Assembly: GCF_041102775.1 (NCBI RefSeq)
Contig: NZ_JBGCUO010000001.1
Span: 310,001-374,000, forward strand
DNA length: 64,000 nt
Direction: 5' to 3'
From: Alcanivorax sp. REN37
GTDB taxonomy: Bacteria; Pseudomonadota; Gammaproteobacteria; Pseudomonadales; Alcanivoracaceae
Shown here piece by piece: positions 50,108 to 64,000 of the stretch. Position numbers and translations under genes: made by a program. A model generated the notes under the pieces. That model was not told the DNA's origin. It saw only the letters and a program-made list of their open reading frames with translations, and ran no database searches. How positions within the stretch are numbered: position 1 is the stretch's first letter; each line of letters opens with the position of its first letter.

Positions 50108-50147
50108 AAAAAGCCCGGGTGCGGTGAAGCGCTCGGGCTTTTTGTTT
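50108..50147 (+). terminator. Amidase terminator
   Basis: 10-bp stem AAAAAGCCCG/CGGGCTTTTT (50108-50117 with 50134-50143). It overlaps the edge of the putative attachment relic. Confidence 0.88.
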
Positions 50148-50180
50148 GGTGGCGGAACACGGAACTGAACCCGCGTCCGC
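50147..50180 (-). other. tmRNA 3'-end-like relic, candidate att site
   Basis: The minus strand reads GCGGACGCGGGTTC, then a diverged stretch, then CCACCA. The first 14 nt match what I recall of the T-arm region of gammaproteobacterial ssrA 3' ends, but the T-loop has an extra base and the acceptor part does not pair with any 5' half nearby. It lies where core genes give way to the defence island, as expected for an island attachment site or displaced copy. A degenerate tRNA end is the alternative. Confidence 0.4.
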
Positions 50181-50344
50181 TTTATGAACCAGATAGTAAC
50201 ACCTCGGCCTTAAGGCCGTGAATTCGATGATCTGGCCGAAAACCGTGTTGGCTTTCGGCGAATCCCCCTTTTATGTGCGTGATCCGGGCTCCCAAGACCT
50301 CGGAGGCTCCTCTGCGACCATTGACCGGGTACGTCTGCTGCAAA

Positions 50345-50382
50345 TTGCAGTTTGTCAGATACTGATTTATATTTCTGACAAA
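50345..50382 (+). promoter_or_regulatory. AbiE promoter with operator repeat
   Basis: TTGCAG (50345-50350), a 17-nt spacer, then TATATT (50368-50373). A perfect 9-bp inverted repeat TTTGTCAGA/TCTGACAAA (50351-50359 and 50374-50382) flanks the -10 and touches the Shine-Dalgarno. AbiEi antitoxins repress their own promoter through such repeats. Confidence 0.75.
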
Positions 50383-50394
50383 GGAGCCATGACC

Positions 50395-50991
50395 ATGAGC
50401 CATCTTGCCGAGAACATCTTGTCTGCCGCCCGGGCCATGCCCGAGGGTGGTCTGTTGTCGCCCAAGGAGTTCCTGCATCTGGGATCGCGGGCAGCCATCG
50501 ACAAAACCTTGTCCCGGCTGGCTCAGGAAGGGAAGCTGCTGCGCGTGAGTCGCGGTGCCTATGTCGCACCCCATGAGGGCCGGTTTGGCTCCCGCCCACC
50601 GTCCACAGAATCCGTGGTGCAGGCCATCGAGGCCAGCTGCGGTGAAACGGTGGTGGCCAACGGCGCGGCCGAAGCCAATGCGCTGGGCCTGACCACGCAG
50701 GTGCCGACCCGCGAGGTTTTTCTCACCTCCGGCGCATCCCGTACCCTGCATCTTGGCAGCCGGTGTGTGGAGCTCAAGCACGGCAATCGCTGGCAACTGC
50801 TGCTGGGCAAGCGCCCCGCAGGCAAGGTGATCCGTGCGCTGTCATGGCTGGGGCCGGAGGGCGCACCGGAGGCGCTGAAGCAACTGCGCGCCAAATTGCC
50901 CGAGTCCGAGTGGGAGGCCGTGCGTGGCGCGCGGGCCGCACTGCCGAGCTGGATGGCCAAAGTGGTCAGCGAGGCAATGGCATATGGCTGA
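50395..50991 (+). CDS. AbiEi-type antitoxin/transcriptional regulator (DUF6088-like)
   Basis: 198 residues starting MSHLAENILSAARAMPEGGL. ATG 50395 is preferred over 50389 because AAGGAG then has 8-nt spacing. The N-terminal winged helix (SPKEFLHLGSRAAIDKTLSRLAQEGKLLRVSRGAY, about 22-58) would bind the operator just upstream. The C-terminal half has the antitoxin-family strands (TVVANGAAEANALGL, REVFLTSGASRTLHLG). It represses the operon and counteracts the AbiEii toxin, whose gene overlaps it by 8 nt. This is a type IV, phage-responsive pair. Confidence 0.83.
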   Translation: MSHLAENILSAARAMPEGGLLSPKEFLHLGSRAAIDKTLSRLAQEGKLLRVSRGAYVAPHEGRFGSRPPSTESVVQAIEASCGETVVANGAAEANALGLTTQVPTREVFLTSGASRTLHLGSRCVELKHGNRWQLLLGKRPAGKVIRALSWLGPEGAPEALKQLRAKLPESEWEAVRGARAALPSWMAKVVSEAMAYG

Positions 50992-52072
50992 GTCTTGGTT
51001 TTCGCTCAGCCGGGAAGATCAGGTTGAAGCTCTGGAGTTTGCTGCGGCTCGCACCGGGCGGCCTGCGCACCTGCTCGAAAAAGACATCTGGGTGGTCTGG
51101 GTGCTGTCCGCCATTTACGAATCCGACCTGGCCAGCAAGCTCACCTTCAAAGGCGGCACCTCGTTGTCCAAGGTGTATCGCATCATCGACCGGTTTTCCG
51201 AGGACGTGGATCTCACCTACGACATCCGCGAACTGGCCACCGACCTCTTGAAGGAAGGCAACCCCATTCCCGATTCCGCCAGCCAGGAAAAAAAGATTAG
51301 CAGCGCGGTACGCCACCGCCTGCCCGACTGGATCGAGACGACGGTCAAACCTGTCATTGCTGCGGCGCTGGTGAAAGATGGATTGGACGCGAGCCTGACG
51401 TTGGCTGGCAAAGATAAGGACAAGCTGATCCTGTCGTATCCGGCGGTCAAAACTGGAACCGGATATTCAGCGCCCACGATCCTGCTGGAGTTTGGTGCCC
51501 GCGCCACGGGAGAGCCGCACCATGTTCAGCCAGTGGCATGCGACATCGCACCGGAAATCGAAGGGGTCACTTTCCCAGTCGCCCAGCCCCTGGTGATGGC
51601 GGCAGAGCGCACCTTCTGGGAAAAAGCCACCGCTGCCCATGTGTATTGCTTGCAGGGGCGGCTGCGCGGCGAGCGTTATTCGCGTCACTGGTACGACTTG
51701 GCCGCCATCGCAAAAACACCTCACTGTGCAGCGGCCTGCGCCGATCAAGCTCTGGCCCAAGCCGTTGCAGAACACAAATCGGTGTTCTTCGTCGAGAAAG
51801 ATGCTGCTGGTGCCAAGATCGATTACTTCGCCGCCATCAGTGGTCAACTGCAACTGATCCCGGCAGGTGAATCGTTGGCGGCGCTCGAAAAGGACTATGC
51901 CGCAATGCTGGAGGATGGTCTGCTGGCGCTGAATCAGCCGAGCTTTGCCGGCATCATCGAGCAGTGCCGCATCATTCAGGACGAGGCCAATCGGCAGGCC
52001 ATGCTGGGTGAGCGCCGCAAGGCACTGGACGAGTTGGCCGCACAGGCACAAAAACTCGACATGGGTTACTGA
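50984..52072 (+). CDS. AbiEii nucleotidyltransferase toxin
   Basis: 362 residues from ATG 50984. The polymerase-beta-type nucleotidyltransferase core is TFKGGTSLSKVYRIIDRFSEDVDLTYD (about 50-76): GGTSLSK for nucleotide binding and D-V-D-L for metals. Later conserved parts (FWEKATAAHVYC, RHWYDLAAIAK) match the AbiEii/AbiGii family. Related toxins add nucleotides to tRNA acceptor ends and stall translation during phage attack. Its start lies inside the antitoxin gene, giving coupled translation. Confidence 0.9.
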   Translation: MAESWFSLSREDQVEALEFAAARTGRPAHLLEKDIWVVWVLSAIYESDLASKLTFKGGTSLSKVYRIIDRFSEDVDLTYDIRELATDLLKEGNPIPDSASQEKKISSAVRHRLPDWIETTVKPVIAAALVKDGLDASLTLAGKDKDKLILSYPAVKTGTGYSAPTILLEFGARATGEPHHVQPVACDIAPEIEGVTFPVAQPLVMAAERTFWEKATAAHVYCLQGRLRGERYSRHWYDLAAIAKTPHCAAACADQALAQAVAEHKSVFFVEKDAAGAKIDYFAAISGQLQLIPAGESLAALEKDYAAMLEDGLLALNQPSFAGIIEQCRIIQDEANRQAMLGERRKALDELAAQAQKLDMGY

Positions 52073-52165
52073 CACCCTCCCCACCGCGCGGCATCAACCA
52101 TCAGGCATTTCCGGATCATTGCCCGGTGCTGAGCTTCCCGGATTACCGCTGACGATCAGCCGTTC

Positions 52166-52185
52166 CCATATGAATTTTCATATGG
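52166..52185 (+). promoter_or_regulatory. Palindrome overlapping a ribosome-binding site
   Basis: CCATATGAA-TT-TTCATATGG, a perfect 9-bp inverted repeat with a 2-nt centre. Its right arm contains the first two bases of the GGAG (52184-52187) that serves ATG 52195. It can act as a protein operator or as an RNA hairpin hiding the Shine-Dalgarno. Confidence 0.6.
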
Positions 52186-52194
52186 AGAACTTTG

Positions 52195-52668
52195 ATGTCC
52201 AGCACTCTCTGCGCCTGCTGTGGCCAACCATTCGAGCCGCGCCCACAAGTTCCTGGCCAAGCCTACTGCTCCTCGCCCGACTGCCAGCGCGCCCGCAAGC
52301 GCCAGTGGCAGCGGGCCAAGCTTCAGTCCGATTCCGACTACCGAATCAACCAGCGCGCAGCCCAGCAGGCATGGTCGCAGCGCAATCCTGACTACTGGCG
52401 CAACTACCGTAACGCCCGGCCAGAGTACGAACAGCACAACCGAGCACAACAGCGTCTGCGTGATGTCAGGGGACAGGACACTGGTCTTGCAAAGATGGAC
52501 GTGTGCGACCTGCCGACAGGCCTGTACCGCATCACACGACACCCAGCCTTTCCAACGGAAAACGGCACTTCATGGATCGTCGAGATCACACCGGCATGCC
52601 TGACGTGTCCGTGCAAGATGGACGTGTCAAGAGATGACTTGATCGACACCCCGGCGATTCGCCCTTAA
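52195..52668 (+). CDS. Zinc-ribbon protein of the recombinase module
   Basis: 157 residues. The N-terminus MSSTLCACCGQPFEPRPQ has a CxxC followed by CSSPDCQRARKRQWQR, making a four-Cys zinc site similar to CGNR/HNH-less ribbons found beside mobile-element genes. A basic, Gln/Arg-rich middle (about 33-90) suggests nucleic-acid binding. A second Cys group (LTCPCKMDV) is near the end. GGAG lies 7 nt before ATG. It precedes the serine recombinase by 138 nt on the same strand and probably belongs to the same element. The exact role is unknown. Confidence 0.7.
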   Translation: MSSTLCACCGQPFEPRPQVPGQAYCSSPDCQRARKRQWQRAKLQSDSDYRINQRAAQQAWSQRNPDYWRNYRNARPEYEQHNRAQQRLRDVRGQDTGLAKMDVCDLPTGLYRITRHPAFPTENGTSWIVEITPACLTCPCKMDVSRDDLIDTPAIRP

Positions 52669-52806: not shown

Positions 52807-54384
52807 GTGATCGGGTCTATGCAGGCAGAAGAATTTTCAACGGAGGTGGACTCACCCCCTCCAACATTTAGGGCCGCAGAATACGTGCGGATGTCGACCG
52901 AGCACCAGCAGTATTCGACGGAGAATCAGGCCGACAAAATCCGTGAGTACGCCGAGCGGCGCAACATCGAGATCGTTCGCACCTATGCCGACGAGGGTAA
53001 GAGCGGGCTGCGCATCGATGGCCGCCGAGCACTGCAGCAACTGATCAAGGATGTCGAGACGGGAAACGCGGACTTCCAGGTCATCCTGGTCTACGACGTC
53101 AGTCGCTGGGGGCGGTTTCAGGATGCCGACGAGAGTGCTTATTACGAATACATCTGCCGCCGCGCCGGAATCCAAGTCGCCTACTGCGCCGAGCAGTTCG
53201 AGAATGATGGCTCGCCCGTGTCCACCATCGTCAAGGGCGTCAAGCGTGCGATGGCGGGCGAATATAGCCGTGAGTTGTCGGCCAAGGTATTCGCGGGGCA
53301 GTGCCGCCTGATCGAGTTGGGCTTTCGGCAAGGCGGCCCGGCTGGCTATGGCCTGCGACGCGTGCTGATCGATCAGTCCGGCACGCTCAAAGGTGAATTG
53401 GCTCGTGGTGAGCACAAGAGCCTGCAAACTGACCGCGTCATCCTGCAGCCGGGGCCTGACGACGAGGTCGCCGCCGTCAACCAGATCTATCGCTGGTTTG
53501 TCACCGACAACCTGGCGGAGCTCGACATTGCCGAACGGCTGAATACCCAAGGGATTCGAACAGACCTTGGACGTGATTGGACACGGGCGACAGTGCGCGA
53601 GGTGCTGTCCAACGAGAAATACATCGGCAACAACGTCTACAACCGGCGCTCCTTCAAGCTCAAGAAGCATCGGGTGGTCAACAGCCCCGAGATGTGGATC
53701 AAGAAGGAAGGTGCGTTTGAGGGCATCGTGCCGCCGGAGCTCTTTTACACGGCGCAAGGCATCCTGCGCGCACGATCACACCGCTACAGCGATGAGGAGC
53801 TGATCGAGAAGCTGCGCAACCTGTACCAGCGTCATGGCTATCTCTCCGGTCTGATCATCGACGAGGCCGAAGGCGTGCCCTCGTCGGCGGCCTATGCGCA
53901 CCGTTTTGGCAGCCTGATCCGCGCGTACCAGACGGTGGGCTTCACTCCGGATCGGGACTACCAGTATCTGGAGGTGAACCAGTTCCTGCGCCGACTGCAT
54001 CCGGAGATCGTCGGCCAGACCGAACGGATGATCGCCGAGGTCGGTGGCATGGTCGAACGTGATCCGGCCACCGATCTCCTCACCGTCAACCACGAGTTCA
54101 CCGTCTCGCTAGTGCTGGCCCGTTGCCAGTTGCTCGACAACGGGCGGCGGCGCTGGAAGGTGCGCTTCGACACCAGCCTCGCGCCCGACATCACGGTGGC
54201 CGTGCGGCTAGATGAAACAAATCAGGCGGCGCTGGATTACTACCTGTTGCCGCGACTCGACTTCGGCCAGCCCCGCATCCATCTCGCCGATCACAACGGC
54301 ATCGAGTTCGAGTGTTACCGCTTCGACAGCCTGGACTACCTGTACGGCATGGCCCGGCGCATCCGCATAAGGAGGGCCGCATGA
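52807..54384 (+). CDS. Large serine recombinase
   Basis: 525 residues. The resolvase catalytic domain (about 22-165) has the nucleophile Ser in EYVRMSTEHQQYSTENQ (S30) and Arg residues in YDVSRWGRFQD; a recombinase domain follows (about 185-300, WTRATVREVLSNEKYIGNNVYNRR). The C-terminal 220 residues lack the usual Cys-rich zinc ribbon and are unlike phage integrases. The start is uncertain: GTG 52807 or ATG 52819, neither with a strong site. The stop overlaps the next ATG (ATGA). It probably catalyses integration, excision or resolution of the island, perhaps with the ParB-like partners. Confidence 0.87.
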   Translation: MIGSMQAEEFSTEVDSPPPTFRAAEYVRMSTEHQQYSTENQADKIREYAERRNIEIVRTYADEGKSGLRIDGRRALQQLIKDVETGNADFQVILVYDVSRWGRFQDADESAYYEYICRRAGIQVAYCAEQFENDGSPVSTIVKGVKRAMAGEYSRELSAKVFAGQCRLIELGFRQGGPAGYGLRRVLIDQSGTLKGELARGEHKSLQTDRVILQPGPDDEVAAVNQIYRWFVTDNLAELDIAERLNTQGIRTDLGRDWTRATVREVLSNEKYIGNNVYNRRSFKLKKHRVVNSPEMWIKKEGAFEGIVPPELFYTAQGILRARSHRYSDEELIEKLRNLYQRHGYLSGLIIDEAEGVPSSAAYAHRFGSLIRAYQTVGFTPDRDYQYLEVNQFLRRLHPEIVGQTERMIAEVGGMVERDPATDLLTVNHEFTVSLVLARCQLLDNGRRRWKVRFDTSLAPDITVAVRLDETNQAALDYYLLPRLDFGQPRIHLADHNGIEFECYRFDSLDYLYGMARRIRIRRAA

Positions 54385-55292
54385 ACCAGGATAAAGAGCA
54401 TCGCCACTCGGAATTGCGGATGATCCCGTTGAACCGGATCGAGGTTCTGAATCCGCGCGAACGCAACAGCCGCGTGTTCGAACAGATCGTCGGCAACATC
54501 CAGAGCATCGGCCTGAAGAAGCCCATCATCGTTACACCGCGCCCGGGGAACGATGGCGAGCACTACCTGCTCATCTGCGGTGAGGGGCGTTTCAAGGCCT
54601 TCAAGACGCTCGGCCACCAGGAAATCCCCGCGATGGTGATGAACGTCGATGATGAATCGGCCTTCATCATGAGCCTGACGGAGAACATCGCACGGCGCAA
54701 ATTCAGCCCGCTGGAGCTGCTGATCGGCATCGAACAACTGCGGGATCAGGGCTACGACAAGAAAGACATTGCGCAGAAGACGGGCCTGAGTCCGGAGTAT
54801 GTCCAGGGCATCCTGTACCTGCTCAAGAATGGCGAAGAGCGCCTGCTGATGGCCGTCGGCAGCGGACGCATCCCGCTCAACGCGGCGATCACGATTGCTG
54901 GCGCGGGCACCGATGACAAGGCAATCCAGGCCGCACTGCAGGAAGCCTATGAATCCGGCAAGCTGCGTGGCAGCCAACTGATCCAGGCACGGCGGGTCAT
55001 CGAACGTCGCCGCACGCAAGGTCGGGCCGTCGGCGGCAAGATGTCATCCCGCAAACCCAATGCGGATGTGACCACGTCGAGTCTCGTGCGCAACTACCAA
55101 CGTGAAGTCGAGCGCCAGAAGCAGCTGGTCAGGAAGGCCGAGACTGCCCAGCGCAACCTGCTGTTCATCGTCGGTGCGTTGCGTCAGTTGCTGGTAGACG
55201 AGAATTTCACCAACCTGCTGCGCGCCGAGGGAATGGACTCGTTACCGCAGTATCTGGCGGATCGGGTCTGGGCGCGGGGGTGTGGCACATGA
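54381..55292 (+). CDS. ParB-like DNA/CTP-binding protein A
   Basis: 303 residues from ATG 54381, inside the recombinase stop (ATGA), with AAGGAGGG 4 nt upstream. The ParB/Srx N-terminal fold has MIPLNRIEVLNPRERNS and the CTP-binding-type loop LLICGEGRFKAFKTLGHQEIP; the next element is SLTENIARRKFSPLELLIGIEQL. A helix-turn-helix follows (DIAQKTGLSPEYVQGILYLLK, about 135-155). The C-terminus has a helical, basic coiled-coil-like segment (YQREVERQKQLVRKAETAQ). No ParA lies nearby, so classical partitioning is unlikely. Confidence 0.83.
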   Translation: MNQDKEHRHSELRMIPLNRIEVLNPRERNSRVFEQIVGNIQSIGLKKPIIVTPRPGNDGEHYLLICGEGRFKAFKTLGHQEIPAMVMNVDDESAFIMSLTENIARRKFSPLELLIGIEQLRDQGYDKKDIAQKTGLSPEYVQGILYLLKNGEERLLMAVGSGRIPLNAAITIAGAGTDDKAIQAALQEAYESGKLRGSQLIQARRVIERRRTQGRAVGGKMSSRKPNADVTTSSLVRNYQREVERQKQLVRKAETAQRNLLFIVGALRQLLVDENFTNLLRAEGMDSLPQYLADRVWARGCGT

Positions 55293-56167
55293 GCAGACCG
55301 CCACTGGGCTTCGTGCCGGAGCCTCTATTTCTCGAGCTTTCGGCCATCCTGCCATCGCGCAAGACCCCCGAGGGCTTGTTTGCCTCCCGAAAATTCAAGC
55401 AGATCCTCGCGTCCATCGAGGCTGTCGGGCTGATCGAGCCCCTGTCGGTGGGAAAGCCCTCCCGCGAGGGCCAGTACATCTTGCTCGATGGGCACACACG
55501 GCTGGTGGCGCTGAAGCAGTTGGGCTTCGACAAGGCACCGTGCCTCGTGGCCACCGACGACGAGAGCTACACCTACAACAACCGGGTCAATCGCCTTTCC
55601 AGCATTCAGGAGCACCTCATGATCCGCCGCGCCGTCGAACGCGGCGTCACCCCGGAAAAGCTCGCGAAAGCATTGGACGTGGACATCAGCCACATCATCA
55701 AGAAACTGAATCTGCTCGATGGCATCTGCCCGGAGGCCGCCGAGTTGCTGCGCGATCAAACCTTCTCGGCCAACCTTGGCGCAGTGCTACGCAAGCTCAA
55801 GCCAACCCGTCAGGTCGAATGCGTCGAACTGATGGTCAGCGCCAACAACATCACGGTGGCCTATGCACAGGCCTTGGTGGCCGCCACACCCAGTAACCTG
55901 CTCGTCGGCGAGACCAAGCCCAAGAAAATGACCGGCGTCAGCGCCGATCAGATGGCCAAGATGGAGCGGGAAATGGGCAATCTCCAAGAGCAGTTCAAGC
56001 TGGCCGAGCAGACCTATGGCCAAGACATCCTCAATCTGGTGCTGGCCAAGGGCTATCTCGCCAAGCTGATGGCCAATGAAGCCATCTTGCGGCACCTGAC
56101 GAGAAATCATCCCGACGTGCTGAACGAGTTTGACAGCATCGTGCGCATGGTGGCGCTGGACAAGTAA
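55289..56167 (+). CDS. ParB-like protein B (RepB-type C-terminus)
   Basis: 292 residues from ATG 55289, again overlapping the previous stop as ATGA. The ParB-like N-terminus shows FVPEPLFLELSAILPSRKTP and YILLDGHTRLVALKQLGF (about 70-87), the equivalent of the GxHR box. RRAVERGVTPEKLAKALDVDISHIIKKLNLL forms the helix-turn-helix (about 115-145). The C-terminal part resembles the RepB partition-protein C-terminal domain (LRKLKPTRQVECVELM, then a long coiled coil MAKMEREMGNLQEQFKLAEQ). It is distinct from ParB-like A, so the pair may form a hetero-complex at a site near the recombinase. Confidence 0.83.
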   Translation: MSRPPLGFVPEPLFLELSAILPSRKTPEGLFASRKFKQILASIEAVGLIEPLSVGKPSREGQYILLDGHTRLVALKQLGFDKAPCLVATDDESYTYNNRVNRLSSIQEHLMIRRAVERGVTPEKLAKALDVDISHIIKKLNLLDGICPEAAELLRDQTFSANLGAVLRKLKPTRQVECVELMVSANNITVAYAQALVAATPSNLLVGETKPKKMTGVSADQMAKMEREMGNLQEQFKLAEQTYGQDILNLVLAKGYLAKLMANEAILRHLTRNHPDVLNEFDSIVRMVALDK

Positions 56168-56243: not shown

Positions 56244-56388
56244 CGTTCTTTAACAATCTGGATGTGTCAGGGTCATCGCTCCCGAAGCGGACGTCCTGCT
56301 TTTGTCCGTTATAGAGAGCGATGGCCGACAGGCTTGCCGCTGGCCTGCCCATTCGCACAGGGGTCTGCGAATGGGCGAACAGCGGCAA
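56244..56388 (+). ncRNA. Orphan structured leader with boxA-like element
   Basis: GTTCTTTAACAAT (56245-56257) resembles the rRNA-leader boxA and the leaders of some integrative-element operons. It is followed by two stem-loops: CATCGCTC/GAGCGATG (56274-56281, 56316-56323), and a two-tier repeat with outer TTGCCGCTG/CAGCGGCAA (56334-56342, 56380-56388) and inner CCCATTCGCA/TGCGAATGGG (56348-56357, 56366-56375). No plus-strand gene follows, since mcrC lies antisense. It could be a leader that lost its gene, a small RNA, a terminator for the ParB operon or a recombination site. Confidence 0.45.
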
Positions 56389-56467
56389 CTTTGTAGTACC
56401 AACGCTGGCTGGTGCAGGGAGGCAAGCCCGCTTATGTGATCCGTGCCCACATTGATCGACCGAAATT

Positions 56468-57793
56468 TCAAGCTCTCGCAGACCAAACAGCAGTAGTGGC
56501 TAGTTGCATGACCAGCGAACGTAACTTGGCCACTGCGTCGGTGGAGTTGTGGGGCAACGTGGCAAAGCTGATCTTTTTCCGGTCATCAAGGCTCCATGGG
56601 CTGTTCTGCTCAGCATGGGGAGTATCAGGTTTTGATGGGTCGAAGGGATACGCCAAGAGACCCCAGGTTTCAATTCCGACGGGTGCTTGAAAGCGTCCGA
56701 GGTAGGCAGCCATCTGGTACAGGTCGTCGCGTTGCGGCCCATTTGGTGAGCTGGCAGACGGATGGAGGGACTTGTATTTCGCATCAACCACCCCCTTGAT
56801 GACGGAGCCAGAGAGCAGTATCGCGTCGGGTATCAATGTGCCCAGACCTTGGCCCGAAACATTGCTATGGAGCAGTTTCTTGGTGGCAGACTTATCGCGA
56901 GTGCCGTGGATCACTGTCAGAGGTACAGCGGCCTTCCGCAGGATGCTGAGGACGTACATCTCCCAGAGCTCGGCAACGTCGAGCAACACCCCTTTCGTTT
57001 CACCGCTGGCATCAATATCGGCAGCGAGCCCCCTTCGGTTTGCAATCTGCCTTGATAACTCAGCGATAGACGCGAAACCTGCGGTGATCGGCGTGTAGCG
57101 AATCCGGTCCAGTTGAGCTTTCGTCGGCACGCGTGGTCGCGCACCGGTGACAGCCATCAGATGGGGAAGGAGCTCCTTGGCACGCGTAGGCAGCCATTTT
57201 TCGTCCGGCACCCCAAGCCACCGTCGCAGAACCTCGTAGGCGGCGACGATGGCATCGGATGCTGCGTGATCCAACGATCGCTCCGAACGGATAGACACGA
57301 CCTGTCCACCACCCGTGGCGATCAAGCGCAGAGATGCCGGGACATCAAGCCGTCCCCTGACAGTCGCGCCTTCGGTGGCCACTTCACGGCGAAGCGCAGG
57401 CAGCCCATGCCGTGCCGCCTCGATGAAGCCATGGGCCCAAACGGACGCGAGGAGTTGGGCAATGAACGATTCGTCCTCCCTGAGCCTTCCGGGCGCGTCG
57501 GTCAGCACGACCGACGTGGCTTCAAAAAGCCAACTCCGAAGCGTGGCCAAACCAAAACGTGGCTCAATAGTCAGGCTGTGTCCCTCGAAGGAAATTGAGC
57601 CGACGTACCGGCCAGCCCACCAAGTGCCGTCCCATGCACAGTAGACGATGGGTTCATCGTCATCCCTTTCGCCGGAGATGGGCACGACAAGATTCGAGGC
57701 TCGGACATTGGTTGCGAGCTTACGGAGCCAGTTCGCCTCCGCCGCTGTCGGTTGCGGGACAAGCGGCGAGCAGTCACGCGCGACTAGTTTCAC
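56468..57793 (-). CDS. mcrC: McrC-like restriction endonuclease subunit
   Basis: 441 residues from GTG 57793, overlapping the mcrB stop (GTGA). An N-terminal McrC region (VPISGERDDDEPIVYCAWDG, YVGSISFEGHSLTIEPRFG) is followed by a C-terminal PD-(D/E)xK nuclease with LIPDAILLSGS, VVDAKYKSL and RDDLYQMAAYLGRF (about 330-385), all three catalytic elements present. McrC binds the McrB ring and supplies DNA cleavage at modified cytosine sites. It is longer than E. coli McrC (348), as in many phylogenetically distant members. Confidence 0.88.
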   Translation of the reverse strand: MKLVARDCSPLVPQPTAAEANWLRKLATNVRASNLVVPISGERDDDEPIVYCAWDGTWWAGRYVGSISFEGHSLTIEPRFGLATLRSWLFEATSVVLTDAPGRLREDESFIAQLLASVWAHGFIEAARHGLPALRREVATEGATVRGRLDVPASLRLIATGGGQVVSIRSERSLDHAASDAIVAAYEVLRRWLGVPDEKWLPTRAKELLPHLMAVTGARPRVPTKAQLDRIRYTPITAGFASIAELSRQIANRRGLAADIDASGETKGVLLDVAELWEMYVLSILRKAAVPLTVIHGTRDKSATKKLLHSNVSGQGLGTLIPDAILLSGSVIKGVVDAKYKSLHPSASSPNGPQRDDLYQMAAYLGRFQAPVGIETWGLLAYPFDPSKPDTPHAEQNSPWSLDDRKKISFATLPHNSTDAVAKLRSLVMQLATTAVWSARA

Positions 57794-59580
57794 TCGGCCA
57801 CCGACGGCTTGAGTAGAACCCTAGACAGCCGGTCGAGCTCACCATTGCGTGCGTTTGCGTCCAGTCCGGCGAGATACTGCTCGAGCAATGGACGAAGGGA
57901 CAGATTCCACACCTGCACTACTGGCTCCAGAGCTTCACCCTTTTTGTTCCAGAGATAGTTCTGCTTGCGCGTCGGTCGAGTGCCGAGGAAATTGCGCAGG
58001 AATACGACCACGTCGAGCAGGTAGGTGTGCCCGATCTCGTACTGCGAGCCCAGCAGCGGGCTGTCGTGGATCTGCCTGTTCAAAGCCGCCGCCGCTGCAG
58101 CCAATTTGCGGAAGTCCGGTTCGATGCGATCCCACGCAAGCCCCGATTTCAGATTATGCCACTTGGATTCGGCGGCACCGACAAGAGCCTCTGCGTCAAA
58201 CGGGCACAGTAGCCACAGGAAGCGGCGGCGCAGCGCGAAGTCGATCTGCTCAATGGACTGGTCGATCAGGTTCATGGTGCCGATCACGTACAGATCGTCC
58301 GGGATGCGCAGCTTCATTGCTGCCCCGTCGCCATTGCGTGCCGGAAGCTCAATCGTCTGATTGCGATCCTCAAGCAAGGAGAAGCACTCGCCGAGCATCC
58401 GACTCAGATCCGTCCGGTTCATTTCATCCAGTATCAGGATGTGCGGCAGACGTTCCGCGCGTGGCTGCCGCTCAATGTCCTCAATCAGTTTCGGAAGGTA
58501 GCCAGCTCGATATTCCGTGCCACCGCCATTCGAAATGTGGAGTGCGCGGATGAAGTCCTCGTAGCTGTAGGCCGGATGCAGCTGTAGTCGATGCACGTTG
58601 TCGCGGATTGCGGATTCGATAGCAGATTGCGACTGGAAGTAGCGAGCGGGCCCCATCTGGCTGAGAGCAGCAGATCGGATGACGCGCTCAGCCAGCTTCT
58701 TGGCGCGGAAGGTCTTGCCAGTACCCGGCGGGCCATAGAGGACGATCTGCTTCTTGTGCTGGATGATCTCCAGGGGCGCGCCATCAGATGCACCCTCGCT
58801 GTCGTCGTACCAAGCCTCGACAAGCGGCGACCAGTAAAAATCCAGCTCCCGGTTGGGAAGCAGCTTTTCGAGCTCCTGGCGAATGGCCAAGATCGCCCGG
58901 TCATCATCCTCTGATTCGGCAGTGACTAGTCCCGAGAAAGCCTTGATGACTCTGCGCTTGTGATTGCCACTTGCTATGCGCTCGAAGTGCTCGGGGAACA
59001 GGAGGTGGAGAAGCATGTGCCGGAGCTGCTTCGACTCGGCATCCTCGATGCTGTCCACGATATCTTGAAAGAGCCACGGATCGGCGGCCACCTGTACTTG
59101 CCGATCCTGCGGTAACTTCTTCCATGCGATGGCGAGTTCGATCAGGAAAGCAATCTCGAAAGGGCGGCGGGTGTTGTAGCCCTGACCGCCACTGCCGATC
59201 CCGTTGGCGAAGGCTGCCGAAACAGGGTGTGATTCCGGCAGGTTGTCATCGCCCCAGCCGAGCACTTCGTTCACGACCTGCCGCTTGCGCATGCCACCAA
59301 CACTAGACGGGAACAGGAAGTACACGCTCAAGATCTCTGCCGCAAGACGTGATACATCCTGGCCAGCCTTGCCCACCTGGTCTTTGAACTTGTCGATGAA
59401 CGTCCGGTCGCCTTCGTCTGGTGTGGCAACAAAGGCCTTGTGGATGCGATCCAGCACGTCAGGGCGCCAAACAGATGCATCACTGAACAGCAGAGAGCCA
59501 TCGCTCAGTAGGCAGTTGGCGCGGAATGAGTCCGCTGCTTGGTAGATCTTGCTGGTATCGTGTTCTGAATATCTCGCCAT
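57790..59580 (-). CDS. mcrB: McrB-like AAA+ GTPase/ATPase subunit
   Basis: 596 residues from ATG 59580 (GGAGGG 8 nt upstream). The N-terminal 280 residues are a specificity region unlike the E. coli DUF3578 domain, with no motif I can name. The AAA+ motor follows: Walker A VLYGPPGTGKTFRAKKLA (about 289-306), Walker B ILILDEMNRTDLSRML, and the McrB-type signature GTMNLIDQSIEQIDFALRRRF, in which the usual D-R-S reads D-Q-S. It powers translocation for McrC. The recognised modification is unknown and set by the N-terminal domain. Confidence 0.88.
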   Translation of the reverse strand: MARYSEHDTSKIYQAADSFRANCLLSDGSLLFSDASVWRPDVLDRIHKAFVATPDEGDRTFIDKFKDQVGKAGQDVSRLAAEILSVYFLFPSSVGGMRKRQVVNEVLGWGDDNLPESHPVSAAFANGIGSGGQGYNTRRPFEIAFLIELAIAWKKLPQDRQVQVAADPWLFQDIVDSIEDAESKQLRHMLLHLLFPEHFERIASGNHKRRVIKAFSGLVTAESEDDDRAILAIRQELEKLLPNRELDFYWSPLVEAWYDDSEGASDGAPLEIIQHKKQIVLYGPPGTGKTFRAKKLAERVIRSAALSQMGPARYFQSQSAIESAIRDNVHRLQLHPAYSYEDFIRALHISNGGGTEYRAGYLPKLIEDIERQPRAERLPHILILDEMNRTDLSRMLGECFSLLEDRNQTIELPARNGDGAAMKLRIPDDLYVIGTMNLIDQSIEQIDFALRRRFLWLLCPFDAEALVGAAESKWHNLKSGLAWDRIEPDFRKLAAAAAALNRQIHDSPLLGSQYEIGHTYLLDVVVFLRNFLGTRPTRKQNYLWNKKGEALEPVVQVWNLSLRPLLEQYLAGLDANARNGELDRLSRVLLKPSVAE

Positions 59581-59716: not shown

Positions 59717-60478
59717 TCAAACCGGGGACACAATTTTCGTGTCGACGAGTGAGCACAGGTGTTCATCAAGCAGCTTTGCAATGCGCCCGCCAGAGATCAG
59801 CACACCGGCCTCCATGTTCTTCTCCATGGCGTGCCCGGTCAGGTTCGCGCTGGTGATGAAACACATCCTGCCGTCTGCGACAGCGACTTTGGCGTGAACG
59901 CGTCCATCGGAAAACGGATCGGCCTTGTCGCGCCAGGCATAGAGATTGGCGGCCGGAACCAGCGTCCTCATTTTGCCTATCGCGTCGAAGGTAATGCTGC
60001 CGCCGTGCTCTTGGGACAACTCAAGCAGCATTGATATGGCCACACCGCGATCATTTGCCGCGTTCAGCGCCTTTACGATGGTGGACACGTCGTAGGCCAC
60101 GAAGCTGGTAATGAACAACGACTGTTCAGCGGAATTGATGACCTGCAGAAGTGCCTGCTCTGTTCGACGCGCTGACACGAAAGGCGTCGTCGGGCCAGTC
60201 CACACGAGTTCGGTGGATTGCTCCGAAGCGGCTTTGGTGTAGACATGGCTGGCAGCGATAAGCATCGATGCCAGTTCGTCTGAGCCGACCTCGGTGTTTT
60301 GCCACGCGGCTGCAAGTTGCTCGACCACGGTACTGGCCACCGGGGTTCCCACCACGCTCGGCAACGTCGACGCAGCTTTGCTGGCTTCGGTTCGACGAAC
60401 GCGGGCGGCAACGGCCTGTACCTTTTCAGGCGAAACCAGAGAAACCAATGCTGCAATGGCATCCAAGAGTTCATCCAT
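59717..60478 (-). CDS. drmC: DrmC phospholipase D-like protein of DISARM
   Basis: 253 residues from ATG 60478, one nucleotide after the drmB stop. A helical N-terminus (about 1-100) precedes one phospholipase D-type domain with VHAKVAVADGRMCFITSANLT (about 195-215), the HxK(x)4D motif complete (H-A-K-V-A-V-A-D). A partial first motif region reads AEQSLFITSFVAYD. DrmC is the optional third member of the DISARM core and is not essential in some systems. It may act as a nuclease as a dimer. The downstream gene mcrB is 136 nt away. Confidence 0.85.
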   Translation of the reverse strand: MDELLDAIAALVSLVSPEKVQAVAARVRRTEASKAASTLPSVVGTPVASTVVEQLAAAWQNTEVGSDELASMLIAASHVYTKAASEQSTELVWTGPTTPFVSARRTEQALLQVINSAEQSLFITSFVAYDVSTIVKALNAANDRGVAISMLLELSQEHGGSITFDAIGKMRTLVPAANLYAWRDKADPFSDGRVHAKVAVADGRMCFITSANLTGHAMEKNMEAGVLISGGRIAKLLDEHLCSLVDTKIVSPV

Positions 60479-60479
60479 G

Positions 60480-62339
60480 TCAGAAACCCTTGAAGAAAGC
60501 AGCGTCGGCGCGTTCGAGTGTTGGTACGAGCAGCGATCGATCCAGATAGCGGTTGCCTCGCTCACAAGAGGTCTCCGCTACCAAACTGCACGCATGGCAG
60601 GCGGCACCATGCAGTGATCGATCCTTTTCTGGATCATGTTCCGAACAGAGAGGATCAGAGGAACAGATCTTCGAGCGATTCAACGCTTGCTCCAGCAAGC
60701 GGCCAAGATTTTCTGGCTTGCCAAGATCGACGAGGCCGCCCAGCGTGCCGTCCGAATCGGCTGCTGCTGTGTAGATGAGGATGCCTGCCTGCGGGCTGTC
60801 GCCCGACGTATCGGCATAGATGCGCTCACGAATGCTCGCGGCGTTGTATCCGCATTCCAGCGCCAACTCCCGAATCAGTAGATGAGACAGCGTGTGCAGC
60901 ATCGCATAACGAATGCCGGGGTAGCCTTCGTTCGGGTCGAGATGACGCGAATTGCGCCACCCCTTATGACCACCACGGAGCATCTGGTCGACATTCTTCA
61001 CACCATCCAGAGCCTCCCACTTGACGAGCGCAGCCTCATCGAACTGGATGAAGATTCCTTCACCATGAACCTGGTTGGCTGGCACCCAATCCGGCTTGCT
61101 GCGTGACAGGCTGGCCATCTGCGGACGCTCATTGGGGTCGCCAGACTCTTCGGGGGCTTCGACCCGGGTGAAGCCCAGCAACGCATTCACCTCGCGCAAA
61201 CGTTCGAGGAGCAAGACTCGACTGATATGGCCTCCGAGGCCCTGTGGCGTGCCGACCTTCTTACTCATGAAGTGCGGGTAGTCCGTGGGCGGGTTGGCCT
61301 CCGTCAGCACATCCCACTCGGGCCCTTTGATGTCGGCCTCACCTACGACATCCTGCCCGCCTCCGGAGCGATGTGCCTCGATGGCCGACCAGATCGAGGC
61401 CGCCGCATATTTGTCTATTCCTGGCAGCGCACCAGTCTTCTTCAAGGTCTTCACCGTCACCGACACTTCGGCTTCGGAGTCGAGATCTTCGAAAAACTCC
61501 CAGCCATCCTGGATCAGCTGACTGAGCGGGTCGTTGGTCTGAGGAATCGCGAGCGCCGAGAGCGTGATGGGGAACCAGCTGTTCGTGGCACCCAGCAGAA
61601 CGGCGCGAGCCTCTTCATCACATTCGTGATCGAAGTGATCGAGATGCGGGTGACGCCCTCGGCAACCGGGCAGATTCTCTTTTCCGGCTTTTCCAAAGGC
61701 GTGCGCCATGCTTCTGGACGCCCCACAGGCATCACACTTCACCCACAGGTTTTCGGTTTGCAGCGATGCACCACTCTCGAAGAAGCGCAGTGTGCCTTTG
61801 CAAGAACTGTTGCCGCCGTGGACGAAGTAGTGCCAAGGGAAGTCGTCGAGGTGACCATCGCGACAGGCCAGCAGAAAACGCGCGGGGACGGCATCCGCAT
61901 CCTTGGCCGGTTGGTCGCCTTTGGAACCACGGCAGCCTTTGTGAACGAAGCGGGTTCGCTCCGGCCTGAAGCGGTTCTCCTTGATCTCGAACAGACCGGC
62001 ATCAAAGGGGGACAGCAGACCGCACTTCACGCAGCGCATCCAGCGCGGGAATGGCCGGACGGGAACGCCGATATTGGCCTCGGCAGACCAGACATCAACG
62101 AGTTCGCTTTTCTGGAAAGGCGGCATCCGCAGATTCTCGACCTGCGTTCCCAGAACCTTCCGAACGGCAGCAAGCAGCCGTGCCTCTTGAATCGGTTGGC
62201 AGCGATCCTTTTCCCAGCGGTCGATACCGAGTGTCACTACGGAAAGGCTGGGCAGGTCGATCAGCGCACCGGGGCCATAAGTCCACAGCAATTGGCTTGG
62301 GCGTACTTCGCCGACTGGAGTTTTGTTGTTGATGATCAT
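60480..62339 (-). CDS. drmB: DrmB (DUF1998) protein of DISARM
   Basis: 619 residues from ATG 62339 (GAGG 7 nt upstream; an in-frame TTG 6 nt earlier is less likely). The opening VRPSQLLWTYGPGALIDLPSLSVV is typical of DrmB. Zinc-type Cys pairs occur in RCVKCGLLS and VKCDACGAS, and the DUF1998 C-terminal signature is HACSLVAETSCERGNRYLDR. DrmB binds the DrmA helicase, and the DrmAB complex recognises incoming DNA with a free 5' end. Start and stop codons interlock with drmA and drmC, so the three form one unit. Confidence 0.9.
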   Translation of the reverse strand: MIINNKTPVGEVRPSQLLWTYGPGALIDLPSLSVVTLGIDRWEKDRCQPIQEARLLAAVRKVLGTQVENLRMPPFQKSELVDVWSAEANIGVPVRPFPRWMRCVKCGLLSPFDAGLFEIKENRFRPERTRFVHKGCRGSKGDQPAKDADAVPARFLLACRDGHLDDFPWHYFVHGGNSSCKGTLRFFESGASLQTENLWVKCDACGASRSMAHAFGKAGKENLPGCRGRHPHLDHFDHECDEEARAVLLGATNSWFPITLSALAIPQTNDPLSQLIQDGWEFFEDLDSEAEVSVTVKTLKKTGALPGIDKYAAASIWSAIEAHRSGGGQDVVGEADIKGPEWDVLTEANPPTDYPHFMSKKVGTPQGLGGHISRVLLLERLREVNALLGFTRVEAPEESGDPNERPQMASLSRSKPDWVPANQVHGEGIFIQFDEAALVKWEALDGVKNVDQMLRGGHKGWRNSRHLDPNEGYPGIRYAMLHTLSHLLIRELALECGYNAASIRERIYADTSGDSPQAGILIYTAAADSDGTLGGLVDLGKPENLGRLLEQALNRSKICSSDPLCSEHDPEKDRSLHGAACHACSLVAETSCERGNRYLDRSLLVPTLERADAAFFKGF

Positions 62340-62341
62340 GT

Positions 62342-64000
62342 TCAATCCTCATCCTTCGTTGCGGGACGAGGCTTCCAATCGTGATCGTCCGTGATATGGC
62401 TCGTGTTCATGATCAGACGCACGCCGGGCTCGACCTCTCGCATCGACATCGGTACGGTCCAGTTGTCCCAGGCTTGAAGTCCAGGCGACTTGATCAATGC
62501 CACGGTCTTGTCTTTTTCGGGGCCGCGCTTCTCGTAGGCCAAGATCCGTCCACCCTTGCTGACTTCTTTCGCCCATTCGTCGGCGCGCTCTTTCAGCTCA
62601 GTCTCAGCCAACTGCTTGCGCGAGTTATCTTCCGCGACATTGCCTGCGCGTGTCGCCAAGACCTTGATGGCATCGACGATTTCGGCCTGATTGGACATGC
62701 TCAATTGGCCAGCACCTTCGTTCGGGCTGAATTCGTCGTTCTCCAGACGCATCAGGCTCAACAACGAGCCCGTCAGGCCACGATCCATCGCGCGTGGCGA
62801 GAATGGCGTTACCGATTGCGCCTCGACATGCTTGTAGAACGTGGCGTGGTAGTGCTCGAAGGTTTCGTAATGCGATAGGTCGCGTGGCCGGGCCCACGTC
62901 AGCACCGTGCAGACCAAGCCGGGGAAGGAGCGCCCGACACGGCTGGTGGCCTGAATGTATTCGGCGGTTCCCTTGGGTTGCCCGTTCACAGCCATCAGTC
63001 CGAGCCGGTTTACGTCGACACCCACTGAAAGCATGTTGGTGGCCAGCACCACATCGATGGCGCGCGTGTCGCCCTCTTGCCACTTGGTCACGTACTTGCC
63101 GACTGCGGCGTCGAACTCGGACTTGAACTTGACCTCCAGGTTATCGAGGTACTTGGGGATGTCCTGGCTCGATACCCGCGACGTCAGCTCGCGAATGTTG
63201 CTAATGCTGCGTTGTGCCAGCGCAGGCCGCTCCACCATGCTCATCTGCACGCGATAGGAACGTGTCTGCACATCGTCCTCTGCCAGCCGCTTCATCCCGC
63301 CCAATTCACGCAGGGAGTTGAAGTAGCCGACCATGGTCATGTACGGGTCAGCAGGTTCGCCAAAGTGATCGAACAGTTCTTGCGCCGCCGTCAGGAACGC
63401 GGTGTAGACGCGGATCAGCATTGCGGGGCGAGAACTACCGGGGGAGCACACGCCGAGGTAACGCCGTCCCGGTTTTTCTTCGATCGGTCTCTGCACCGAG
63501 AAGAAGTTGTCTTCCACGTCCAGTCCATGCGGCGGGAACACCGAAACTCGACGCATGAAGACGTTGTTCACTTGCTCCTTGGCTTTGCGCACCGTCGCCG
63601 TGGAGGCAATGATCTTCGGTTTGACCGTCTTGCCATCAAGTGTCCAGCCGCACAATTCATCCACGGCGGTCTCATACAAGCCCACCATGGTGCCCAGCGG
63701 CCCACTGATCAGGTGGAACTCGTCCTGAATGATCAGGTCAGGCGGGCGGATCGGGTTGATGACCTTCACCTTGGATGAAGGGAAGCCCTTGCCCGCTTGG
63801 TGATTGCCATTGCAATCGGCACCTTGCCAAAGCAAGCCGTGGCGCTCGCATTCCTGGCCCACGCGACCAAACAGTGTGCGCACCTGACCACGCCACGCCA
63901 TCATGGCGAACTTGTCCACGGTGGCGATCATCATCGTGGGTGGGCGGTGGTAGATCTCTTCGTCCACGACCAGTACCGGAATCCCCGGGTGTGGCTGCTT
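62342..64000 (-). CDS. drmA: DrmA helicase of DISARM (partial at window edge)
   Basis: C-terminal 552 residues; the frame is open through 64000, so the N-terminal portion lies beyond the window. Visible helicase parts are IPVLVVDEEIYHRPP, MMIATVDKFAMMAW, LIIQDEFHLISGPLGT (DEFH as motif II), IASTATVRKA (motif III), and the C-terminal motor LATNMLSVGVDVNRLGLMAV (V) and EYIQATSRVGRSFPG (VI). DrmA is a large SF2 helicase with DUF1998-partner DrmB. Its stop overlaps the drmB start region. A drmD and methyltransferase would be expected further right if this is class 1 DISARM. Confidence 0.92.
   Translation of the reverse strand, partial: KQPHPGIPVLVVDEEIYHRPPTMMIATVDKFAMMAWRGQVRTLFGRVGQECERHGLLWQGADCNGNHQAGKGFPSSKVKVINPIRPPDLIIQDEFHLISGPLGTMVGLYETAVDELCGWTLDGKTVKPKIIASTATVRKAKEQVNNVFMRRVSVFPPHGLDVEDNFFSVQRPIEEKPGRRYLGVCSPGSSRPAMLIRVYTAFLTAAQELFDHFGEPADPYMTMVGYFNSLRELGGMKRLAEDDVQTRSYRVQMSMVERPALAQRSISNIRELTSRVSSQDIPKYLDNLEVKFKSEFDAAVGKYVTKWQEGDTRAIDVVLATNMLSVGVDVNRLGLMAVNGQPKGTAEYIQATSRVGRSFPGLVCTVLTWARPRDLSHYETFEHYHATFYKHVEAQSVTPFSPRAMDRGLTGSLLSLMRLENDEFSPNEGAGQLSMSNQAEIVDAIKVLATRAGNVAEDNSRKQLAETELKERADEWAKEVSKGGRILAYEKRGPEKDKTVALIKSPGLQAWDNWTVPMSMREVEPGVRLIMNTSHITDDHDWKPRPATKDED

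Follow-up and report, generated by a model that had tools for sequence, protein, structure and literature searches.

Large serine integrases depend for their directionality on separate factors that are hard to find, and the CTP switch of ParB proteins has so far been linked with DNA segregation, nucleoid occlusion and gene silencing. In this work we have analysed a 64,000-nucleotide stretch of the Alcanivorax sp. REN37 genome (hereafter the window), in which a large serine recombinase (LSR) is encoded together with two different ParB-like proteins (PB1 and PB2). Like the integrases of phiC31 and Bxb1 and SprA/YokA of SPbeta, LSR has Resolvase and Recombinase domains, a catalytic-serine motif and the corresponding fold over residues 15-322, and, like the large serine integrases with recombination directionality factors (RDFs), it is coupled to a dedicated partner. 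It differs from these enzymes in that residues 323-521 are left uncovered by matches apart from a weak HNH_repeat, in that its partners are two ParB-fold proteins and not a small RDF, and in that the triplet is linked to tRNA or tmRNA 3' ends and to T-arm-like sites.

As occurs with CcrAB and CcrC of SCCmec, LSR belongs to a cargo-bearing chromosomal island, and it has a weak match to the CcrB profile (2.5e-15), although this match, at 56 bits, is far under the 900 bits of the NCBIfam cut-off and the insertion site differs. We know of no ParB partners in SCC. PB1 and PB2 resemble the orphan proteins of the ParB-CTPase fold, which are also found on mobile elements without ParA, but here the ParB pair is coupled to an LSR, and the main text of the survey of those orphans mentions neither recombinase, integrase nor RepB (PMC12704722). 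A search of open-licence PMC papers gave no account of such a triplet. We propose, holding it about as probable as its negation, that the triplet is a recombination module of proteobacterial mobile units, in which the ParB pair serves as a dedicated accessory of the recombinase and not in partition; the units would comprise 3.9-kb plasmid units, defence islands and, probably, prophages.

The operon, its products and its distribution

Three intact open reading frames of the plus strand encode LSR, PB1 and PB2 where the earlier note had placed them (Table 1). The LSR frame opens with GTG at 52807, ATG at 52819 being the better and likely start, and ATGA is found at both junctions. The ORFs, the Pfam matches and these junctions confirm that a serine recombinase is coupled to two different ParB-like proteins, as the earlier note had claimed; the overlaps that it described are present, while the fixed stoichiometry that it read from them is at most suggested by the overlaps. 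Across the whole genome, PF00239 occurs in one gene and PF07506 in two, which are those of the triplet. Upstream lies ORF158, for which a Pfam search gave no match and which is conserved as the first gene of the module in betaproteobacteria.

Table 1. Features of the window around the LSR-PB1-PB2 operon
Feature	Position	Strand	Basis
Probable left end of the window island	50144..50180	.	GTTTGGTGG, then tmRNA-3'-like sequence; directly right of the terminator after a host amidase gene
AbiEi-type antitoxin gene (DUF6088), true start probably internal	50218..50991	+	PF19570 1.4e-24; PADLOC AbiEi 1.3e-61
AbiEii-type toxin gene	50924..52072	+	PF08843 4.7e-37; PADLOC AbiEii 5.9e-96
ORF158, small Cys-rich protein (CACCGQPFEPRPQ...)	52192..52668	+	homology of close relatives begins at 52162-52207
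LSR, large serine recombinase	52819..54384	+	PF00239 3.9e-24, PF07508 1.6e-23; catalytic Ser in YVRMS
PB1, ParB-like (ParB_N + RepB)	54381..55292 (ATG)	+	Pfam PF02195 and PF07506 over cut-off; CGEGR, ENIARR
PB2, divergent ParB-like	55289..56167 (ATG)	+	RepB 1.9e-45; ParB_N weak but over cut-off
Hairpin, module right end	56336..56386	+	invariant outer stem GCCGCTG/CAGCGGC; covarying inner stem
Cargo: McrC-like protein	56468..57793	-	PF10117 4e-23
Cargo: McrB-like AAA protein	57790..59580	-	NCBIfam McrB 3e-26, below cut-off
Cargo: DISARM DrmC	59717..60565	-	NF038319 above cut-off
Cargo: DISARM DrmB	60480..62345	-	NF038324 1.7e-233
Cargo: DISARM DrmA, C-terminal part; gene continues past the window	62342..64000	-	PADLOC DrmA E=0

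With its Resolvase (PF00239) and Recombinase (PF07508) domains both over cut-off, LSR is placed among the large serine recombinases. In its model (mean pLDDT 70), residues 15-322 match the structures of the SPbeta (Z 15.4), Bxb1 and phiC31 integrases; the C-terminal third, beyond these structural matches, is modelled as a helical HNH-repeat-like part, a long helix (379-407) and a beta-rich region (412-477), and a zinc ribbon was not found by Pfam search. PB1 and PB2 both combine ParB_N (PF02195) with RepB (PF07506), and thus share one architecture while forming separate subfamilies; this domain pair assigns both to the RepB subgroup of the ParB-CTPase fold. Noc 7ng0 (Z 15.2) and ParB-CDP 6sdk (Z 14.0) are among the structural matches of the PB1 model (pLDDT 75), and the nucleotide motifs CGEGR and ENIARR of PB1 are near-invariant across copies. 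PB2, whose profile match is to Noc 7ol9 (7.5e-12), keeps DGHxR, and its ENxxR box reads NNRxNR. According to the 2025 survey, the NTP used by such proteins is not predictable from sequence or AlphaFold3 (PMC12704722).

A search of genome contigs with PB2 alone recovered 79 loci, 78 of which carry LSR and PB1 upstream, the exception (L080) being without LSR. Once plasmid copies had been added, the triplet sought on the suggestion of the earlier note was complete in 88 of 89 loci, with a gap of -4 between LSR and PB1 in 82 of the 88 and between PB1 and PB2 in 78, so the arrangement is not due to chance. The YVRMS active-site motif is present in 83 of the 88 LSR copies; five LSRs are shorter than 440 aa, several of these being cut by contig ends or frame breaks. 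The hosts are alpha-, beta- and gammaproteobacteria, and the copies are mostly chromosomal, with several on plasmids; the E. coli genomes searched gave no match. A copy on a Lactiplantibacillus plasmid is probably contamination and was left out of the counts. One locus (L069:2159-11420) contains a tandem pair of LSR-PB1-PB2 modules followed by a third LSR, and another (L077:19763-20261) a truncated module fragment, which ends within PB1 and is closely followed by a tRNA-Ala(CGC) gene.

All three genes are also present in 31 of 41 IMG/VR contigs. Tail-fibre J genes adjoin the module in the provirus contigs L188 and L201. To the right of PB2 in L188 there follows what, from its first codons, reads as the start of an RfaH-like host gene; this fits the position of an integrase in prophages.

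Insertion sites, borders and cargo

Betaproteobacterial copies of the module occupy the left end of islands whose insertion sites are tRNA or tmRNA 3' ends. The left ends begin with TGGTGG, in many cases beside a host terminator, and the right ends abut the TGGTGG of the tRNA. The site occupied by the Ramlibacter island (G060) is empty in a relative (G089), where the tRNA-Ala(CGC) gene reads ...ATGTTTGCTG-TGGTGG-AGAGGAGG...; the filled left end reads ...ATGTTTGCTG-TGGTGG-TGTAGTCCCC and the right end, 76 kb off, ...GTCGAATGG-TGGTGG-AGAGG, and the candidate attP for this tRNA-Ala attB is CGTCGAATGG-TGGTGG-TGTAGTCCCC. Comparable islands measure 76 kb (G059) and 40 kb (L015, at tRNA-Phe). Repeats of the island left ends were sought within the extended loci and none was convincing; the right ends were found via the tRNA genes. 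Identity at the attachment site is limited to 6-7 bp (GTGGTGG) and is not diagnostic of a serine enzyme. In one genome, the LSR-ParB island stands in tandem with a distinct island (G061:C7:56843-71198), which has a tyrosine integrase and a 45-bp tRNA-Ala repeat.

No PF00589 tyrosine recombinase was found within the islands of G060, G059 and L015. In the islands of L015, L043 and the window, no serine recombinase was found besides the LSR of the triplet; the window island has an additional tyrosine-recombinase-like fragment. The two 76-kb islands carry near their right end a second, distinct LSR with a DUF2924-like gene (L154:9193-10617, L155:10953-12365), and this second LSR could be the island integrase.

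The probable left end of the window island has GTTTGGTGG and TGAACCCGCGTCC-like sequence in common with the 3' end of ssrA (minus strand, window coordinate 88874-89230; L095:4874-5230), and the island lies between this tmRNA-like repeat and ssrA, beyond the window. A beta_tmRNA search placed none of the other islands examined beside ssrA, which is thus the site of the window island only, and the amidase loci of relatives contain no tmRNA within 1.5 kb. A third copy of the repeat is found near 79871; between it and ssrA (window coordinates 79871-88874; L094/L095) lies a second small island in tandem, which encodes a NERD/UvrD-type protein and a 1597-aa protein.

The smallest units are found on plasmids and have no cargo. 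A 3,904-bp unit, consisting of the genes for a 135-aa protein, LSR, PB1 and PB2, is 96.9% identical between Agrobacterium pAtC58 and pAt1D1460, where its flanks are unrelated. Its two 27-bp ends are imperfect direct repeats such as CCTTGAAGGGAGTTGAACCGTTGGCCC / CCTTGAGCGGAATCGAACCTTCGGCCC; about 2,960 random windows were scored in each plasmid stretch and none reached their level. The neighbouring AbiE and Fic blocks, which occur elsewhere without the unit, adjoin a similar motif. In a Rhizobium/Aminobacter pair (92.7% identical) the left end is the T-arm-like GGTTCGATTCCCTTCAA. For the P. aeruginosa IncP-2 copy, the insert was larger than the stretch compared with the empty site.

Between the window and its close relatives, homology extends from 52162-52207 to 56386-56392, beyond which the sequences diverge. 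In this lineage the module ends in a hairpin, right after which the defence cargo starts abruptly; 96.4% of the cells of its alignment are paired, with 21 compensatory cells, a level reached in 0 of 500 shuffles, and slid versions of the alignment have 28-50% paired. Twelve bases of the hairpin arm recur at window coordinate 78871, inside a possible phage gene, and this repeat was treated as chance. As in integron attC cassettes, the cargo begins at a structured hairpin with a fixed outer stem and a variable, covarying inner stem; unlike integrons, the recombinase is a serine and not a tyrosine enzyme, and the hairpin is single, with no cassette array shown. It is absent from a second module lineage, which has a fourth gene and whose right end is an array such as CTAATTTCGCTGATTTCGCTAATTTCGC. 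It is hard to reconcile one recognised site with a hairpin in one lineage and a TTTCGC array in the other, since their LSRs are 88-95% identical.

Families enriched to the right of the module across loci are DISARM, BREX, Wadjet, HerA, GmrSD, HsdM and WYL, and the AbiE pair just upstream of the module is also found in several relatives and in pAtC58. Within the DISARM cluster beside the window module there is a retron-type RT_III-A and PRTase_III-A pair (window coordinates 66337-68886; L094:2337-4886, minus strand). In dozens of loci the module has a sharp right border, and the cargo beyond it varies at both border types, the same Wadjet cargo adjoining both module lineages. An XRE/ImmA cargo block found left of the module in L006 lies at the right border in L030 (L030:12341-15181), between perfect 17-bp direct repeats ATTTCGCGCCGATCAAT that end where homology with L031 ends, and UvrD cargo right of the unit in L169 is absent there in L170. 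These observations would fit a module that acts as a cargo-exchange device, joining or swapping defence cassettes at its right border, with island insertion left to the second LSR or to a tyrosine integrase since lost. We consider this doubtful, however, given that a direct-repeat scan of about 30 right borders yielded only the L030 case as a clear one, that the cargo ends compared have no common core, and that the minimal plasmid units are devoid of cargo.

Partition, regulation or recombination

What are the roles of the two ParB-like proteins? A deviant ParA-type Walker A motif (KGGxGKS/T) was found near the module in one of the 79 loci (1.38 Mb scanned). A cognate ParA beside ParB, as in ParABS systems, is therefore not a feature of these loci, and the absence of ParA that the earlier note had seen holds across them. 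The parS-like palindromes for which it had advised looking were not found in convincing form near the copies; the sole conserved inverted repeat is the hairpin of a single lineage. That PB1 and PB2 stabilise an excised or plasmid-borne element apart from the recombination step, in a partition-like manner or by hijacking a host ParA, would be in line with their RepB/ParB family membership, with the several plasmid copies and with SGI1, which is reported to self-stabilise by hijacking plasmid parABS (PMC10954446). We regard this as improbable, since ParA is lacking beside the module, most copies are chromosomal, no parS array was seen, and in nearly all copies the genes of two different ParBs are joined by overlaps to that of the recombinase. 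The best reading is that PB1 and PB2 are not a plasmid partition system. With one ParA motif in 79 loci, mostly chromosomal copies, a catalytic motif intact in nearly all copies and a strict link with mobile DNA, the proposal of the earlier note is partly supported, and neither of the findings that it had named as refuting was made: the triplet is not confined to plasmids with a separate ParA, nor is the recombinase inactive in most copies. The CTP-dependent loading complex that it suggested, which would direct or restrain recombination, is a putative one.

It is likewise quite improbable, in our opinion, that PB1 and PB2 are KorB/Noc-like transcriptional regulators silencing the module, the AbiE pair or the cargo. 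KorB is, with Noc, among the structural matches of PB1, and in the alpha copies LSR is preceded by a small divergent gene, annotated in Sphingobium as a DeoR-type regulator. Nevertheless, two coupled repressors downstream of a recombinase gene would be unusual, and the alignment of the intergenic region upstream of LSR revealed no conserved or shared palindrome or operator.

The gene set, its coupling, the intact active-site motif and the discrete borders support instead a recombination module with a dedicated ParB pair. In this module, LSR would cut and rejoin DNA so that the unit is inserted or excised, with a preference for tRNA or tmRNA 3' ends or T-arm-like sequences, and we infer that it makes the observed unit borders. 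PB1 and PB2 may be NTP-gated DNA clamps, always made with LSR, that would most likely load near the unit end and control synapsis or direction, replacing the separate RDF of other serine integrases. Caution is advisable because the large islands have a second LSR, the identity at the attachment site is short and close modules differ in their right ends. A more specific version, which we offer tentatively, is that PB1, with canonical motifs, and PB2, with an altered one, carry out heteromeric NTP-dependent clamp loading at a structured DNA site, switching LSR between integration and excision or recruiting defence cargo.

If our reading is correct, a near-obligate operon of an LSR and two ParBs would join the fields of serine-integrase directionality and of the ParB CTP switch, and would offer a testable case of a nucleotide-gated clamp that acts in recombination and not in segregation. 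The presence of the triplet at the border of defence islands would also help to explain how defence systems move.
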